Shown: positions 9 to 8,247 of the stretch, in pieces
Numbering within the stretch: position 1 is the first letter of the stretch
Layout of the letters: each line of letters opens with the position of its first letter
Assembly: GCA_025453925.1 (NCBI GenBank)
Contig: JALOPK010000251.1
Span: 1 to 8,247 of the forward strand
Length of the DNA: 8,247 nt
Origin: Candidatus Eiseniibacteriota bacterium
GTDB lineage: Bacteria > JAFGKV01
Reading direction: 5' to 3'
Program-made: the position numbers and the translations under genes
Notes under the pieces: generated by a model
Database searches by the model: none
The model's input: the letters and a program-made list of their open reading frames with translations, nothing else
What the model was told of the DNA's origin: nothing

Positions 9-1871
9 CTACCGGTCGTTCCCCACCCAGACGGGGCTCGACCATGCCTGGTGCCCGTCGGCCTGCCTGACGCGGGCATAGTAGTAGTCGCCCGGCGTTG
101 CGGCGCTGCTGTCAGTGAAATCCACACGCTCCACGAGTCCGTCCGTGGAGAATGCCCTGTGCACCGACCCGTTCTTGATGATCTCCAGGTGTTCGACGGG
201 TGCGGTCCCCAGCACGGCCAGTGTGCCACTCCTCGGCCCACGGCACGCCGAATCGGGCAGAACATCCCCCATGGACGAGCCACCCACCGTGAACTGCAGG
301 AGAATCCTCGCGCCTGAGGTCCCATACACATGGCGTGAGGTGAGTGCGCCCCAGATTGCTTCCCTCGTCAGCGTGTCGGCCTGAAAGGCCACCAGACCCT
401 GGGTGTTGCCGGAACTCCACCGACCAGGATGCCCGACATGGCCATCCCCCGAGGCAATAAGACCAAGGCGGTATCCACGAGCCAGGGCGTCCTGGACAAA
501 CTTGCCCTCGGCCGGGGAGTAGATCATGCCCGCGCACCCGAAGCACTCGGAATTCCCATGCACTGAGTAGACTTCCACGAGCATCTCCTGCTCGGGCGGC
601 GGGTGGTGGCTCCAATCTGTTCCGACAGGGCCGCCACCGACATGGTGCGCGACGGTGATTGCGTTCCATGGCTTGATCGCCGCCCACAGTTCTTCCGGGG
701 TGTCGGTGGCGGCATCGTCAAATGGAAACACGGCTCCAGCCTCTCCGGGGAAGTACACATTGCGGTGGCCGTAGGTCCAACTGGTCCACTCGTAGCCCAG
801 GAGCGTGACGAATCTGCCGGGAGCATGAAAGGCCGAGGTCTCCGTCGTCACACTATCCCAACCACCGCCCCGCAATGGCCGGAATCCCCACGCGTCATGA
901 TCGGTGACTGACGCCACATCGAGGCCGGCCGTATCCCTGGCGTAGCGATAGTAGTCGCCCGGGGTCCCCGTACCGTCGCTGAGGCCGGTGTGACCGTGGA
1001 TGTCGCCCCAGAACACGCGGTGGAATACGCCTCCTGACCCGCAGAGTATGGGGTTGGAGGATGCCCGCATGCCGGAGAGGCTGTCGGAGACGTGGAAAAC
1101 CACGAGCCCGGGAACGGGGATCGTGGCGGCGAAACGGGAGGCACCCCTGTCGACGGGCGTGAGTTCCAGCGAAGGAGGCGCGGAGGCCTGGCCGTCACTC
1201 GATAACGCGATGACGCCGACGTACCCACCGTCGCAATTGCCGGCCTCATCAAGGGCTGCCACCGTCACCTCGAACTCCTGCCCCGGGGATACCAAACTCG
1301 GCGCGTTGACCCAGAGCGTGACCGCCGGACGTGCGATGACCCGTAGGCCGGGTTGCCGCGAGATCTCCCCGAATACGCCGTCGCCGTCACCGTCGGTCTT
1401 CACGAAGAACTCCTGATGCTGTTCCGCGTAGGGCTCCACCTGGGCCGAGCCTGCGGGGTGGACGCCTCCTCCGGTATCACCGTAGCGTATGGTGACCTCC
1501 TCGCCCTGGCGGAGAGTGTCTCCCCGCACTTCCACCAGCACGTAGTTGCGTGCTGGATCCGCGAAGGGCACGAGGCTGCAGGGGGCAGCGCTGGATACGC
1601 TGCAGAATCCGGGCATGTCGGGATGGGAAATCTGGGGTGGGGACCACTTCCAGAAGGGGCTGATCTGCAGCACGATTCCCCCGCCCGGGGGGAGGCCCTC
1701 CCGGCCGGTTCTGTAAATGATGTCCCATGTACCGAGGGAGCCGGCGACCACGGGTTCGGCAGGGATCATCACGGCGGTGCCACGCCCGTCTTCGGCGGAG
1801 GGATCCGCGGGCTCGGGAGCATCCGTGCGGGCGCAGGAAAGCAGGAGCACCACCAGGAGCATTCGCTTCAT
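9..1871 (-). CDS. DUF3604 (PHP-like) predicted metallohydrolase lipoprotein
   Basis: Predicted secreted lipoprotein of 620 aa with a DUF3604 domain, a family related to PHP-type metal-dependent hydrolases; the substrate is unknown. The N-terminus (MKRMLLVVLLLSC) is a short lipoprotein signal with lipobox LLSC, lipidated Cys at residue 13. Residues ~30-280 look like beta-rich, Ig-like adhesion or linker domains and contain an acidic DGDGDG stretch (160-165) that could bind calcium. The hydrolase domain runs from ~285 to 540. Likely metal ligands are GDIHGHTGLSDG (289-300; His292, His294), VTDHD (322-326), AHH (408-410), VHGNSEC (437-443) and SGDGHVGHPG (474-483). A small beta domain ends the protein. 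The start at 1871 is chosen for the lipoprotein signal and a strong Shine-Dalgarno (GGAGGGAG) 6 nt upstream; the frame stays open to 2213 but that part is antisense to the next gene. Divergent from the aldehyde dehydrogenase. The family call is confident; the enzymatic role is unknown. Confidence 0.88.
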   Translation of the reverse strand: MKRMLLVVLLLSCARTDAPEPADPSAEDGRGTAVMIPAEPVVAGSLGTWDIIYRTGREGLPPGGGIVLQISPFWKWSPPQISHPDMPGFCSVSSAAPCSLVPFADPARNYVLVEVRGDTLRQGEEVTIRYGDTGGGVHPAGSAQVEPYAEQHQEFFVKTDGDGDGVFGEISRQPGLRVIARPAVTLWVNAPSLVSPGQEFEVTVAALDEAGNCDGGYVGVIALSSDGQASAPPSLELTPVDRGASRFAATIPVPGLVVFHVSDSLSGMRASSNPILCGSGGVFHRVFWGDIHGHTGLSDGTGTPGDYYRYARDTAGLDVASVTDHDAWGFRPLRGGGWDSVTTETSAFHAPGRFVTLLGYEWTSWTYGHRNVYFPGEAGAVFPFDDAATDTPEELWAAIKPWNAITVAHHVGGGPVGTDWSHHPPPEQEMLVEVYSVHGNSECFGCAGMIYSPAEGKFVQDALARGYRLGLIASGDGHVGHPGRWSSGNTQGLVAFQADTLTREAIWGALTSRHVYGTSGARILLQFTVGGSSMGDVLPDSACRGPRSGTLAVLGTAPVEHLEIIKNGSVHRAFSTDGLVERVDFTDSSAATPGDYYYARVRQADGHQAWSSPVWVGNDR

Positions 1872-1877
1872 TGACTT

Positions 1878-1885
1878 CTCCCTCC
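1878..1885 (-). promoter_or_regulatory. Shine-Dalgarno of the DUF3604 gene
   Basis: The minus strand reads GGAGGGAG, 6 nt before the ATG at 1871. This near-ideal ribosome-binding site decides the start and excludes the longer open frame that reaches back to 2213. Confidence 0.8.
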
Positions 1886-1896
1886 ATAGGGTACGA

Positions 1897-1923
1897 GTTG
1901 CACGATACAAGAAAGCCTGCAAC
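1897..1923. repeat. Inverted repeat in divergent intergenic region, candidate operator
   Basis: GTTGCA (1897-1902) and TGCAAC (1918-1923) are perfect inverted copies separated by 15 nt, so the half-site centres are 21 bp apart, two helical turns. The element lies between two divergent genes (starts at 1871 and 2000). That geometry suits a dimeric regulator or a loosely paired hairpin. No convincing -35/-10 pair was found on either strand here, so the operator role is inference. Confidence 0.35.
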
Positions 1924-1987
1924 CCCCGGTGAGGAAACCGCGGTGCGTCCCCCAGCCGTGAGACGCGGGGGTCGCCTCTGCGGCGAT

Positions 1988-1994
1988 GGAGGTG
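1988..1994 (+). promoter_or_regulatory. Shine-Dalgarno of the aldehyde dehydrogenase gene
   Basis: GGAGGTG lies 5 nt before the ATG at 2000 and fixes that start, although the frame is open upstream to 1727. Confidence 0.8.
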
Positions 1995-1999
1995 TCGCC

Positions 2000-3433
2000 A
2001 TGCGCAGATTCCTTCCCATCGTTGATGGATGCTCCGTCGAGGATGGGCCACTTCGCACGATACGCAGCCCCTTTGATGACTCCTTCGTGGCCGAGGCGGG
2101 TTGGGGCGATGATGCTCTTGTGGGCCGCGCCATCGAAGCAACGGCCCGCGGCGCGCGCACCATGCGGGATCTGGCGCTGTATACGCGGCAGGAGATTCTC
2201 CGGCGGACCTCAAACCTGCTTTCCCTTCGCACAGAGGAGTTGGCCGAGATCATCGCGAGAGAAGCGGGCAAGCCAATCCGGCATGCCCGGGCCGAGGTAT
2301 CCCGGGCGGCGGTCACCTTCTCTCTCGCGGCCGGAGAGACGTCGGCACTGGCGGGCGAGGTATTGCCGCTGGATGTGAGCCCCAATGGCAGGAGGCGGCT
2401 CGGCATCACCAGGAGGATGCCCGTCGGCGCCATCGCGGGGATCACGCCGTTCAACTTTCCCTTGAACCTGGTTGCCCACAAAGTGGCGCCGGCCTTGGCG
2501 GCGGGCAACGCAATCCTCGTGAAGCCCGCGTCCGCAACTCCTCTCTCCGCGCTGCGCCTGGCGGAGATCCTCGGCGAGGCGGGCCTGCCTCCTGGTGGAT
2601 GCAATGTCGTGCCGTGCAGCGCCCGGGACGCCGGGGCGCTGGCGAGCGATGAGCGAATCGCGATGATCTCCTTCACTGGAAGCGCCGAGGTGGGATGGGG
2701 CATCAAGGCTGCGTGCGGCAAGAAGAGGGTTTGTCTTGAGCTTGGCGGAAACGCGGCCGTGATCGTGGAACCCGATGCCGATTTGGTCCACGCGGCGAAA
2801 CGGATCGCAGCGGGAGGCTACGCCTATGCCGGCCAGGTCTGCATCTCGGTACAGCGGGTGTACGTGCACCACAGTGTGCGCGATGCGTTCCTCGCATGCT
2901 ATCTGCCGGAAGTCGAAGCACTGGTCATCGGCGACCCCATGGATCCGGCCACCGACGTCGGCCCTGTGATTGACGACGACGCCGCGTTGCGAATCGAGGA
3001 ATGGATCGGCGAGGCGGTGGATGCGGGGGGAGCTCTGCTGGTGGGCGGTGGGCGTCGAGGCAGGATGGTGGAGCCGGCGGTGCTGGCCGATGTGCCCGGG
3101 GCATGCCGTGTCGTCGTCGAGGAGGCGTTTGCGCCATTGACCGTGGTGCAATCCTACGGGAACCTGAAAGAGGCACTGAGCGCGGTGAACAGCTCTCGAT
3201 TCGGCCTGCAAGCCGGGATCTTCACCACCAGGCTCGACACCGCCCTGGCGGCGTTCGATGCGCTGGAGGTCGGCGGCGTCATCGTGAACGATTCCTCAGT
3301 GTTCAGGGTCGACAGTATGCCATACGGAGGGGTAAAGGATTCGGGTCTCGGACGGGAGGGTATCGCGTCGGCGATCCACGAGATGACGGAGCCGCGTATC
3401 ATGGTGGTGGAGATGCCGCAGCCGGCGGCCTGA
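2000..3433 (+). CDS. NAD(P)-dependent aldehyde dehydrogenase family protein
   Basis: Cytosolic aldehyde dehydrogenase of 477 aa, a normal full length for the superfamily; it oxidises an aldehyde to an acid with NAD(P)+. All signature residues are present: oxyanion Asn152 in TPFNFP, the nucleotide-binding VKPAS (174-178) and FTGSAEVG (225-232), general base Glu247 in LELGG, nucleophile Cys281 in GQVCISVQR, and the cofactor-contacting Glu375 in EEAFAP. The C-terminal part (NDSSVFRVDSMPYGGVKDSG, 430-449) resembles the lactaldehyde/non-phosphorylating glyceraldehyde-3-phosphate dehydrogenase-like branch rather than betaine- or retinal-type enzymes. The substrate cannot be read from sequence. The start is set by GGAGGTG 5 nt upstream. 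It is monocistronic here, divergent from the DUF3604 lipoprotein, and followed at once by a GC-rich hairpin. The region is also open on the opposite strand, a common artefact of high-GC coding DNA. Confidence 0.95.
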   Translation: MRRFLPIVDGCSVEDGPLRTIRSPFDDSFVAEAGWGDDALVGRAIEATARGARTMRDLALYTRQEILRRTSNLLSLRTEELAEIIAREAGKPIRHARAEVSRAAVTFSLAAGETSALAGEVLPLDVSPNGRRRLGITRRMPVGAIAGITPFNFPLNLVAHKVAPALAAGNAILVKPASATPLSALRLAEILGEAGLPPGGCNVVPCSARDAGALASDERIAMISFTGSAEVGWGIKAACGKKRVCLELGGNAAVIVEPDADLVHAAKRIAAGGYAYAGQVCISVQRVYVHHSVRDAFLACYLPEVEALVIGDPMDPATDVGPVIDDDAALRIEEWIGEAVDAGGALLVGGGRRGRMVEPAVLADVPGACRVVVEEAFAPLTVVQSYGNLKEALSAVNSSRFGLQAGIFTTRLDTALAAFDALEVGGVIVNDSSVFRVDSMPYGGVKDSGLGREGIASAIHEMTEPRIMVVEMPQPAA

Positions 3434-4120: not shown

Positions 4121-4552
4121 CTATTCCCAGTTCGTGATGTCGTCGGTCGTCAGTTCCACGCCGTCCGGTCCCGCGGAGATGAGCTCATAGTCGAGGCCCT
4201 TCCTGGGCGACGGGCTGCGGTAGAGGTAGGGCTTACCCCATGGGTCTTTCGGCACTATCGGCCGCCGCACGTAGGGGCCGTCCCATCCCGGTGGCAGGGG
4301 CTCGGTGGATGGCGGTTCGATCAGGGCGCCAAGCCCCTGTTCCGTGGTCGGGAACGCGCCGTTATCCAACTCGTACATGTCCAAGGCAGCAGGGATGTTC
4401 AGCAGCACGTCCGTACGGGCCGCTGCTATCTTCGCCTTCCTGGCCCGACCTGAAAAGCGAGGCACTACCATGTAGGTGAGCGCGGCGAGAATGACAAGCA
4501 CGAGCAGGAGCTCCAGCAGAGTGAAGCCCCGCCGGGGGGAATAGCTGCGCAT
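4121..4552 (-). CDS. gspG: Type II secretion major pseudopilin GspG
   Basis: Major pseudopilin of the type II secretion pseudopilus, an inner-membrane precursor cleaved and N-methylated by prepilin peptidase, then assembled into the periplasmic piston. The 143 aa match the usual family length. The type III leader is SPRRG|FTLLE: cleavage after Gly9, with the conserved Glu at mature position 5 (Glu14), followed by a hydrophobic helix (10-31). GspG hallmarks follow: PTTEQGLGAL (68-77), the DPWGKPY stretch (103-109), and a C-terminal loop ending AGPDGVELTTDDITNWE (127-143), the usual calcium-binding tail. The ATG at 4552 is chosen because GAGGTG lies 4 nt upstream; a GTG at 4564 overlapping the gspF stop is possible but lacks a ribosome-binding site. 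It follows gspF by 8 nt and is probably the last gene of the operon. The peptidase gene is not in this window. Confidence 0.96.
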   Translation of the reverse strand: MRSYSPRRGFTLLELLLVLVILAALTYMVVPRFSGRARKAKIAAARTDVLLNIPAALDMYELDNGAFPTTEQGLGALIEPPSTEPLPPGWDGPYVRRPIVPKDPWGKPYLYRSPSPRKGLDYELISAGPDGVELTTDDITNWE

Positions 4553-4556
4553 GATG

Positions 4557-4562
4557 CACCTC
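4557..4562 (-). promoter_or_regulatory. Shine-Dalgarno of gspG
   Basis: GAGGTG on the minus strand, 4 nt before the ATG at 4552, overlaps the gspF stop codon. It favours that ATG over the upstream GTG at 4564 and suggests that gspG translation is coupled to gspF. Confidence 0.65.
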
Positions 4563-5307
4563 ACGTTGGCAGGTCTATCTGGAACGCCGGCATCAGCATC
4601 GCCTGCGCCAGAAAACCAATCAGCACCGCCGCGAAAGCAAGCAGCACCAGGGGCATCCAGCGGGCCAGACGCTCAAGCCGTCTTGTGAGCAGGACCTCCG
4701 CGTGCCCGGCCAAAGACGCGAAGGCCTGCGGCATGGTGCCGGACACCTCGGCCAGGCCGAGCACCCGGGACGTGCGTGAGGGGAGCCACTGCGCGCGGCG
4801 CGCCGCCGCACCAGGAGCATCCCCTGCTTTGACCCTGCGGGCCAGTTCGGTGGCAACCTCCCGCCAGTCATCGGGTGTGACAACCACTGCGGCGATCTCC
4901 AAGGCTCTGTCCAGAGGAATCGATGCGCGGGACAGGATGGAGAGGACGCCGAAGTACTTCCAGGCCTCGGCCAGCCGCACTGTTTCGGCGAGCCCCGGGA
5001 TGCGCGATGAGATCGTGCGCAGGCGCTCATGGTTCGAGACGGACCAGACCGTGAGACCGAGAACGGTTGCCGCGACCAGCCAGACGACGGCGGAGCCGCC
5101 CGCGCGCCCGATCCAGAGCGCCACCCGGGTGGCCAATGGGGGAGCAGAGCCGAGCTCTTCGGACAACGCGGAAACCGTGGGAAGCACCACGCGAAACAGG
5201 ATCACGCCGGTCAGGATCGTGGAGCCCAGCACCAGCAGCGGGTACGAGGTGACTCGGGTCACTCGATCGCGCCATGCATCTTCACGCTCAAGTTGCGCGG
5301 CGATCAT
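4561..5307 (-). CDS. gspF: Type II secretion inner-membrane platform protein GspF, C-terminal part
   Basis: This is the main part of GspF, the polytopic inner-membrane protein that links the GspE ATPase to the pseudopilus. The 248 aa begin at the end of the first GspF domain (IAAQLEREDAWRDRV), followed by membrane segments at ~22-43 and ~72-90. A second GspF domain spans ~114-215 (YFGVLSILSRASIPLDRALE, then GLAEVSGTMPQAFASLA). A last membrane helix lies at ~218-240. This is the expected topology from mid-domain 1 onward. Full GspF is usually around 400 aa; the start of domain 1 is encoded by the overlapping upstream ORF (5304-5474). Reading this frame upstream of its ATG gives RPSEGLD, which continues the GspF consensus, so the split looks like a -1 frameshift in an ancestral gene. 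The ATG has GGAGGG 7 nt upstream and overlaps the previous stop as ATGA, so it can be translated on its own. Confidence 0.9.
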   Translation of the reverse strand: MIAAQLEREDAWRDRVTRVTSYPLLVLGSTILTGVILFRVVLPTVSALSEELGSAPPLATRVALWIGRAGGSAVVWLVAATVLGLTVWSVSNHERLRTISSRIPGLAETVRLAEAWKYFGVLSILSRASIPLDRALEIAAVVVTPDDWREVATELARRVKAGDAPGAAARRAQWLPSRTSRVLGLAEVSGTMPQAFASLAGHAEVLLTRRLERLARWMPLVLLAFAAVLIGFLAQAMLMPAFQIDLPT

Positions 5308-5474
5308 ATCGAGGCCCTCCGACGGCCGCTCTTGACCATGGCCGCGATGAGGGCTTCCGGAGAGCCGGCACCGGCCTCGCCGGCCACGAGATCAACCGCC
5401 GCGGCCAGCGGGACCCCGTGCCGCAGCAGCAGCGCCAGGTCGCCGCAGTACTCAACCCGCTGTCGGGAGTTCAT
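5304..5474 (-). CDS. gspF: GspF N-terminal fragment (split gene)
   Basis: A 56-codon ORF starting within the last codons of gspE (ATGA overlap) and ending in an ATGA overlap with the larger gspF piece. RVEYCGDLALLLRHGVPLAAAVDLVA matches the first helices of a GspF domain, and LIAAMVKSG matches the helix before the usual GE-x-G turn; after that the frame drifts into RRRASI and stops. The family consensus resumes in the -1 frame. Compared with typical GspF it lacks the ~60-residue cytoplasmic N-terminus and roughly 35-40 residues between these two helices (the region that normally includes the SLSEAL-type motif), judged from memory of the family. It may be a real small subunit working in trans, half of a frameshifted gene, or the result of a sequencing error. 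Confidence 0.7.
   Translation of the reverse strand: MNSRQRVEYCGDLALLLRHGVPLAAAVDLVAGEAGAGSPEALIAAMVKSGRRRASI
5315..5320 (-). promoter_or_regulatory. Internal Shine-Dalgarno for the second gspF ORF
   Basis: GGAGGG on the minus strand, 7 nt before the ATG at 5307, lies inside the end of the first gspF fragment. It is as strong as those of the other genes here. It supports re-initiation on the C-terminal piece, and is relevant to whether the split is functional. Confidence 0.55.
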
Positions 5475-6850
5475 GCTGTCGGGACACCCATGACGCGGGC
5501 GAGCTCGGCGTTTGTGGTCACCCCGTCCTCGATCATGCAACGCGCCTGTGTTTCCAGCGATGCCGCGCCGGTGCTCTCGATCCGCCGCCGCAGCTCATCC
5601 TCCGAAGCGCCTCGGCGGATCGCCGTTCTCAACTCCTCCTTGACCCGGGTCACTCTGAATATGCCGATCCGGCCGTGATAACCGGAGCCGCCGCATGCCG
5701 GGCACCGCACATCCCGGGAAACGGTGACTCCCGTGCAGGAGTCGCACCGCCGACGCACGAGACGCTGGGCGATCAGTGCCCGCAGCGCTGCGGCCAGGAG
5801 TTCCCGCTCCATGCCGAGCTGATTCAGCCTGGTGACCGCCTGGGCCTCGTCATCGGTGTGCAGACTGGTCAGCACGAGGTGTCCGGTGAGGGCGGCCTGC
5901 ATCGCGATCCTGGCGCTTTCCGCATCGCGCATCTCCCCGACGAGTATCACGTCGGGATCATGACGCAGTACGGCGCGCAGCGCCTGGGCGAAGGAGAGTT
6001 GCGGGCCGACTTCCACCTGCACGGCTCCCGGAATCTGGATCTCCACGGGATCTTCCACGGTGATGATCTTCTCAGTGGATGGAACGCCGGTACGCAGGAG
6101 TACGTGCAGCGTAGTGCTCTTGCCGGAACCGGTCGGCCCGCATGCCACCAGCAGGCCGCTCCGCACGCGCATGACGTCCCCGAGTATCTCCCTGGCCTCC
6201 GGGGAAATCCCCAGGTCCTGAAGCACGGGGAACTCTGTGGGGGATGGCAGGAATCGAACGTGAACCGCCTCTCCGTGCGGCGTGGGGAGCACCGAAATCC
6301 TGAGATCTCGGCCGTCGGTGCGGATCCTGCCCTCTCTGGGGATCATCGACGGCGTGGGATCCAAGCCAGCCATGACCTTGACCCGGGCGGCAATTCGTCG
6401 CCCATGCTTGGCGAGATCATGCGGCGCCGGCACTGGCTGCAGCAATCCATCGATCCGGAGCCGGATGCCGAGGCAATCAAGGGACGGTTCCACGTGAAGA
6501 TCTGTTGCCCTTCGCCTGCCGGCTTCGGCGATGAGTTCATCGACGAACCGGACGACGCCCGCGTCCGGCGGCAGCACCGATTCACCCTCGGAGCCGGGCG
6601 CATCCTCCGCGGCGATAGCCGCCGCCCCGATGCCGTAGAGCCGGACGAGCTGGGTGCGAAAGACCTCGGGGGCGACCGTGACTACCCCGACCCGCACCCG
6701 GGTGAGCTGCTCGATCTCCGCCCGGGCAGAGGAGGACAGAGGCTCCGCGGCCACCAGGGAGACGAGATCGCCGATGACTTCCATCGGAGCCACCGCATAG
6801 TGCAGGGCGACGGATCTGGGGATTCCGTTGACGTTTGTTGAAGCCGGCAT
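5471..6850 (-). CDS. gspE: Type II secretion / type IV pilus assembly ATPase GspE
   Basis: Hexameric cytoplasmic ATPase that powers pseudopilus assembly, 459 aa. Residues ~15-75 look like a reduced N-terminal (MshEN/T2SSE-type) domain. The linker domain contains TDLHVEP (116-122) and RLRIDG (130-135), normal for GspE. The motor domain has Walker A GPTGSGKST (238-246), Asp box TVEDPVE (264-270), Walker B DVILVGEMRD (300-309) and His box TGHLVLTSLHTDD (322-334). A four-cysteine zinc motif (Cys369, Cys372, Cys383, Cys386) precedes GYHGRIGIFRV, but only 10 residues separate the two CxxC pairs, where GspE/PilB usually have around 30. The protein is somewhat short, mostly at the N-terminus. The start at 6850 is backed by GGAGGG 8 nt upstream. 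The stop overlaps the next start as ATGA. PilB/PilT-type ATPases are close relatives, but the gspG-type neighbour favours a secretion system. Confidence 0.95.
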   Translation of the reverse strand: MPASTNVNGIPRSVALHYAVAPMEVIGDLVSLVAAEPLSSSARAEIEQLTRVRVGVVTVAPEVFRTQLVRLYGIGAAAIAAEDAPGSEGESVLPPDAGVVRFVDELIAEAGRRRATDLHVEPSLDCLGIRLRIDGLLQPVPAPHDLAKHGRRIAARVKVMAGLDPTPSMIPREGRIRTDGRDLRISVLPTPHGEAVHVRFLPSPTEFPVLQDLGISPEAREILGDVMRVRSGLLVACGPTGSGKSTTLHVLLRTGVPSTEKIITVEDPVEIQIPGAVQVEVGPQLSFAQALRAVLRHDPDVILVGEMRDAESARIAMQAALTGHLVLTSLHTDDEAQAVTRLNQLGMERELLAAALRALIAQRLVRRRCDSCTGVTVSRDVRCPACGGSGYHGRIGIFRVTRVKEELRTAIRRGASEDELRRRIESTGAASLETQARCMIEDGVTTNAELARVMGVPTA

Positions 6851-7048: not shown

Positions 7049-8247
7049 CTAGTGGATGCCAGTGAGGTTGCCGTCACGGTACTCGAAATCCGGATCTCGC
7101 TCGGGAGTGTGGCACTGCAGGCAGACGGTCGGCCCGACGCGCGGGAACCGGCGAGCCTTCTCCGAGGCGGCCTGCGTCACTCCCGATAATGCCTCTTCGC
7201 CCTTGGTGCGATACATGACGTGGAGGCTCCCCTGCCCATGGCACTGCTCGCACTGCACATTGGCGAGCTCGGGATTCACCTTCAGGCTGATGAATCCCGT
7301 CGGTTTGCCATAGCCGGTGCTGTGGCAGCGAACGCATTCGGGGTCGAAGTGCTTCTGCTTCTGTTCCAGAGTGACCATGGCATGGGCATGCTTCGAGGCC
7401 AGCCACCGTTCGTACACGCCGCTGTGGCATGCTCGGCACTGCTGGGCGCCTGAGTAGCGGTAGTTCATCTGCGTGGGGGGCGGCGCGGCGGGGTGCTGGC
7501 CGCGGGAATCCGCGTAGTACCGCGTGACGCGGGCACCGTAGTTGGCCACGATCTGCTTGATCTCCGGGTCTTCGGGAGTGTCCGTGCCGAGGCCGACCAG
7601 CGTGCCCGTGGATTTGCCCTTGCCGCGGAGCCCGGTCATCTGCAGGCGACCGACCCGCTTACCCTGATCGCCCGCCTGCACCAGAATCGTGTTCCCCACG
7701 CGCTGGGGTTCCTCAGTCAGATGCGAGCCGTGTCCCGCGACGATCACGTCAATCCCCGGCACCTGCTGGGCCAAGGAAAACGCACCGCCCCACCCGAGAT
7801 GCGCCAGCACCACCACGATGTCGGCCTTGGCGGCGACTTCCGGCACCAGCTGCTTGGCCCATTGCATGGGGTCCTCAATCCGGAACCCCAGAGTGTCGAT
7901 GACTCCGGGAGCGGTGAGCATGGTCAGGCCGATGACGCCGACGCGGGTGGTTCCGATCGTGACGATCTCATAGGTCTTGGTCAGCCGCGCGCCGGTGGCA
8001 GGGTCGGAGATGTTGGCCGCCAAAAGGGGAAACGGCATGCTCTTCAAGATCGAATCCACGAACGCGCGCCCAAGCGCAAGTTCGCGTTCGCCAAGCGCTC
8101 CCGCATGATACCCCGCCTTGGCCATGGTCTCCAGGACCGTCTCCGCCTGCATTCGCCCCTGCACGTTCGGCTGACCGGAAAAATCACCCGAGTCAACCAG
8201 CAAGAAATCTCCCTCAGCCCTGATCCGATTCAGATAGGTGGCCCGCC
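7049..8247 (-). CDS. UshA/SoxB-like phosphoesterase fused to tetraheme cytochrome c554-type domain (5' partial)
   Basis: The C-terminal 398 residues of a larger protein; the frame is open through the right edge, and the TTG at 8203 is only an internal Leu codon. Residue numbers start at codon 8245. Residues 1-~235 are a 5'-nucleotidase-type metallophosphoesterase domain: VDSGDF (17-22), AHLG (148-151) and GIDVIVAGHGSH (164-175) match the family, but the usual GNHE is GERE (52-55) and the last motif is HGSH instead of H-x-H/Q. The usual C-terminal nucleotide-binding domain is absent. Instead residues ~265-398 form a cytochrome c554-type domain with four CxxCH heme sites at 270-274, 304-308, 332-336 and 375-379, plus the typical HSTGYGKPTGF (308-318) and CHTPERDPDFEY (378-389). 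It is probably periplasmic or surface-exposed, because c-type heme attachment happens there; the signal peptide would be outside the window. It is on the same strand as the gspE operon. Activity as an esterase is doubtful; electron transfer is likely. Confidence 0.92.
   Translation of the reverse strand, partial: RATYLNRIRAEGDFLLVDSGDFSGQPNVQGRMQAETVLETMAKAGYHAGALGERELALGRAFVDSILKSMPFPLLAANISDPATGARLTKTYEIVTIGTTRVGVIGLTMLTAPGVIDTLGFRIEDPMQWAKQLVPEVAAKADIVVVLAHLGWGGAFSLAQQVPGIDVIVAGHGSHLTEEPQRVGNTILVQAGDQGKRVGRLQMTGLRGKGKSTGTLVGLGTDTPEDPEIKQIVANYGARVTRYYADSRGQHPAAPPPTQMNYRYSGAQQCRACHSGVYERWLASKHAHAMVTLEQKQKHFDPECVRCHSTGYGKPTGFISLKVNPELANVQCEQCHGQGSLHVMYRTKGEEALSGVTQAASEKARRFPRVGPTVCLQCHTPERDPDFEYRDGNLTGIH

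Follow-up and report, generated by a model that had tools for sequence, protein, structure and literature searches.

A probable disruption of gspF by an out-of-frame deletion in a metagenome-assembled Fermentibacterota genome

The type II secretion platform gene gspF is likely to be disrupted, by a recent out-of-frame deletion, in the strain from which this contig derives, and it is the only platform gene found in a metagenome-assembled genome (MAG) that is 82% complete. A single deletion, removing about 85 bp of the sequence for the first cytoplasmic domain (Cyto1), would break the gene, so that translation from the gspF start would give a 56-aa fragment and, at most, reinitiation at an overlapping ATG would give a membrane protein of 248 aa that has the second T2SSF domain and no complete Cyto1. 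With gspF disrupted and no complete Cyto1 in either product, the type II pseudopilus can probably no longer be assembled, or only very poorly.

The broken gene and its neighbors

The window, as we call the whole 8,247-nucleotide stretch that was analyzed, belongs to a 3.9-Mb MAG of the Fermentibacterota in 502 contigs (hereafter G000), and the contig carrying the broken gspF is 8.2 kb long. On the minus strand lie, in order, gspE (6850-5471), the broken gspF (5474-4561), and gspG (4564-4121), which places gspF between gspE and gspG in a type II secretion system (T2SS) operon, as befits a member of the GspF family. The features of this region are as follows.

5471..6850, minus strand: gspE, extension ATPase, 459 aa with MshEN and T2SSE domains; intact
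5304..5474, minus strand: gspF ORF1, 56 aa, the N-terminal 50 GspF residues (first Cyto1 helices) and an out-of-frame tail
5319..5333, minus strand: deletion junction, AAGAGCGG followed by CCGTCG, with 85 nt absent relative to G001 and the breakpoint ambiguous within a few bases
5315..5320, minus strand: GGAGGG, a Shine-Dalgarno (SD)-like word ahead of the ORF2 ATG, also coding for S-E-G of RPSEGLD
4561..5307, minus strand: gspF ORF2, 248 aa, the last Cyto1 helix, transmembrane segments, and a complete second T2SSF domain
4121..4564, minus strand: gspG pseudopilin, with N_methyl and T2SSG domains; intact

Much of what the original prediction described was found as stated. There are two overlapping ORFs (ORF1, 5474-5304; ORF2, 5307-4561) joined as ATGA, both halves are GspF-like, in one frame up to MVKSG and in the other from RPSEGLD, the ORF2 ATG is preceded at about 7 nt by GGAGGG, and the flanking gspE (5471-6850) and gspG (4121-4564) are open.

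Several other features of the window can be recorded here. The listed start of gspG is the GTG at 4564, but translation more likely begins at the ATG at 4552, which has a 6-nt SD-like word (4552-4564, minus strand). An aldehyde dehydrogenase gene (1727-3433, plus strand) converges on the gsp operon, in the same order as in G001. The listed ORF of a DUF3604 protein (9-2213, minus strand) probably starts too far upstream. Lastly, an ORF open at the window edge (7049-8245, minus strand) encodes a C-terminal multihaem cytochrome c554 domain (PF13435), and its N-terminal part, judged by eye only, is 5'-nucleotidase/metallophosphatase-like.

Comparison with intact relatives

Three genomes of the phylum were compared: G000, G001 from the same genus, and G002 from the same family. 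Both relatives carry an intact gspF between gspE and gspG, of 332 aa in G001 and 334 aa in G002, and against these syntenic orthologues the reading frame in the window is broken, as in a disrupted gene. Alignment to G001 shows that a block of 85 nt is absent from the window gspF, with no other indel; on either side of the break the two genes are colinear, over 141 nt upstream (as far as AAGAGCGGC) and 759 nt downstream (from the codons preceding GLD to the stop). When the window gspF is aligned to G002 instead, the gap is 91 nt. Because 85 is 1 mod 3, the frame shifts as observed; the window gene has thus both lost sequence and changed phase. A short microhomology, CGGC, lies at the junction, and the deletion may have arisen by slippage.

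The original prediction had proposed that a -1 frameshift broke an ancestral single gene. The intact relatives bear out the broken ancestral gene, but a one-base frameshift is ruled out by the length difference of 85 nt in the absence of any other indel. Alignment to related gspF genes likewise upheld the change of phase while revealing the missing block, which is invisible without relatives. The proposal of a two-part gene was to be given up if close relatives all kept gspF whole here; in both family members the gene is intact, at the same operon position.

The GspF proteins of these Candidatus Fermentibacteria MAGs (contigs JAFGKV010000144.1 and JAUXFG010000044.1) have in common with the window the gspE-F-G operon and 56% and 46% identity over ORF2, and unlike the window gene they are encoded without a deletion, in one ORF (332/334 aa) that specifies two T2SSF domains. 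Fermentibacterota gspF is itself short (332-334 aa; L003 1234-2232, L004 1243-2247), starting directly at Cyto1 without the classical GspF N-domain, and the window gene has this same short form. With pseudogenes that arise by out-of-frame deletion, the window gene shares one 1-mod-3 deletion, a premature stop, intact relatives, and a preserved remainder of the gene; it differs in that its deletion may not be fixed in the population.

At the protein level, the missing block amounts to about 28 residues, approximately 50-77 of the relative's GspF. The relative's protein was modeled with AlphaFold2 (mean pLDDT 80); the model, which matches the cytoplasmic domains of EpsF, OutF, and PilC, places two of the six predicted Cyto1 helices (53-57 and 64-75) within this block, and in the family alignment it also contains the conserved E-x-x-G motif of Cyto1. 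GspF/PilC platform proteins (PF00482) have two T2SSF domains, Cyto1 and Cyto2; Pfam detects both in each relative, as two stretches, but only the second in the window. ORF1 has no T2SSF match, its 50 GspF residues including no transmembrane segment. ORF2 retains the second domain in full, the transmembrane segment at the C terminus, and, in the first transmembrane segment, the conserved Tyr-Pro. Joining ORF1 and ORF2, whether by coupling, frameshifting, or association, does not restore the missing Cyto1 residues. Programmed frameshifting, which the original prediction had already thought improbable, was rejected; the overlap holds no classic slippery heptamer (X XXY YYZ), and a joined product would still be without the roughly 28 residues.

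No second T2SSF gene was found in G000, an 82%-complete MAG, and a DNA query for the missing block elsewhere in G000 found nothing, a weak result given that the query relative is only 56% identical in protein. Two secretin genes lie elsewhere in G000, on contigs C293 and C399 (L048, L046), the C399 copy being truncated by the contig end.

Reality and age of the break

As an alternative to disruption, the gspF of the population may be intact and the deletion in the contig spurious or rare, owing to an assembly, chimeric-read, or minor-strain artefact. We consider this unlikely. The fragmentation and incompleteness of the MAG and the short contig favor it, as does a coding pattern that is pristine, with no extra decay, on both sides of the break. 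So does the rarity of such lesions: in a background sample of contigs covering about 0.5 Mb of G000, gspF was the sole clear colinear internal frame break among about 40 orthologue-like G000/G001 pairs; inspection of the other flagged pairs covered one, L065/L090, whose stop lies upstream of the real start. However, a single 85-nt loss is atypical of base-call error, synteny is kept on both sides, and no repeat of at least 12 nt that might explain a k-mer or assembly collapse was found at the junction.

Substitutions were polarized with G002 as the outgroup. Amino-acid changes specific to G000 and to G001, respectively, numbered 22 versus 29 in the ORF2 region and 2 versus 4 in the N-terminal part, compared with 25 versus 40 in gspE and 10 versus 11 in gspG. 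Neither half of gspF thus shows an excess of G000-specific changes, whether against G001 or against the flanking genes. Such counts suggest that the break is recent, or absent from most cells, or that both halves are still constrained. The deletion looks recent because neither half has accumulated excess substitutions or further lesions, its age being poorly constrained by two relatives only, at 56% and 46% identity. On the other hand, products that were still in use would likewise leave the codon structure intact on either side of the break.

Coupling signals and platform architecture

We rank the readings in which gspF still functions, taken together, after both disruption and an artefact or minor strain, and regard them as distinctly improbable. 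That the lineage builds its T2SS platform from ORF2 alone, or from ORF2 coupled with ORF1, without a complete first cytoplasmic domain, is very unlikely.

In the first of these variants, which was raised in the original prediction, ORF1 and ORF2 would be translationally coupled and associate in the manner of TadB and TadC. To gauge the coupling signals, we simulated breakpoints of this phase at every codon of 212 long ORFs from G000. Over half of them (55%) end on a stop overlapping a restored-frame ATG, GTG, or TTG, and 15% give an ATGA overlap, which is therefore an ordinary, largely arithmetic by-product of such a deletion. An ATGA with an SD-like word of at least 5 nt at 4-12 nt is rarer (1.3% of simulated breakpoints; 1.6% per distinct stop). 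At about 1.5% of breakpoints, the ORF2 ATG and its respectable SD-like word are a point against disruption, and given this rarity translation of ORF2 from its own start is possible. The combination is mildly unusual, and it is weak evidence of function because it was noticed after the fact; the SD-like bases also encode residues beside the GLD that is conserved in the family.

Platform gene fission does have precedent. Platform proteins normally contain two T2SSF domains, and TadB and TadC of the Tad pilus arose via gene fission, each keeping one (PMC10191384, PMC6668835). What the window has in common with them is that two adjacent ORFs code for a platform of the T2SSF family, and the lack of any sign of relaxed constraint in either half would agree with this precedent. 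However, TadB and TadC each have a whole T2SSF domain, whereas in the window the break falls inside domain 1, part of which is gone, rather than between intact domains, and ORF1 has no detectable domain; a TadB/TadC-like fission was rejected on this account. As the roughly 28 Cyto1 residues, with two helices and a conserved motif, are in neither ORF and absent from the DNA, and as the relatives are unsplit, a functional two-polypeptide GspF is scarcely credible.

It is equally doubtful that ORF2 works by itself as a shortened platform protein: it has its own start and SD-like word and the retained segments described above, but this form is seen in no relative, and loss of Cyto1 would remove three of six ATPase contacts in the PulF and ComGB models, in which each Cyto domain takes one ATPase subunit, six per trimer (PMC10790770, PMC10191384). 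In the PulF model the protein forms a trimer with six Cyto domains in all, every one of which touches a single PulE subunit (PMC10790770). The window arrangement fits neither the TadB/TadC split nor this normal two-domain platform.

The gspF case looks ordinary, with a gene disrupted rather than divided into two working parts, and its chief lesson is that an ATGA overlap with an SD-like word should not be taken for a sign of a functional split. An ORF2 that still functioned would be a test of whether the platform needs both Cyto domains for coupling to the ATPase hexamer. If the deletion is real and fixed, the strain would lack the one type II secretion platform gene detected in it, which would make it a modest natural example of secretion loss.
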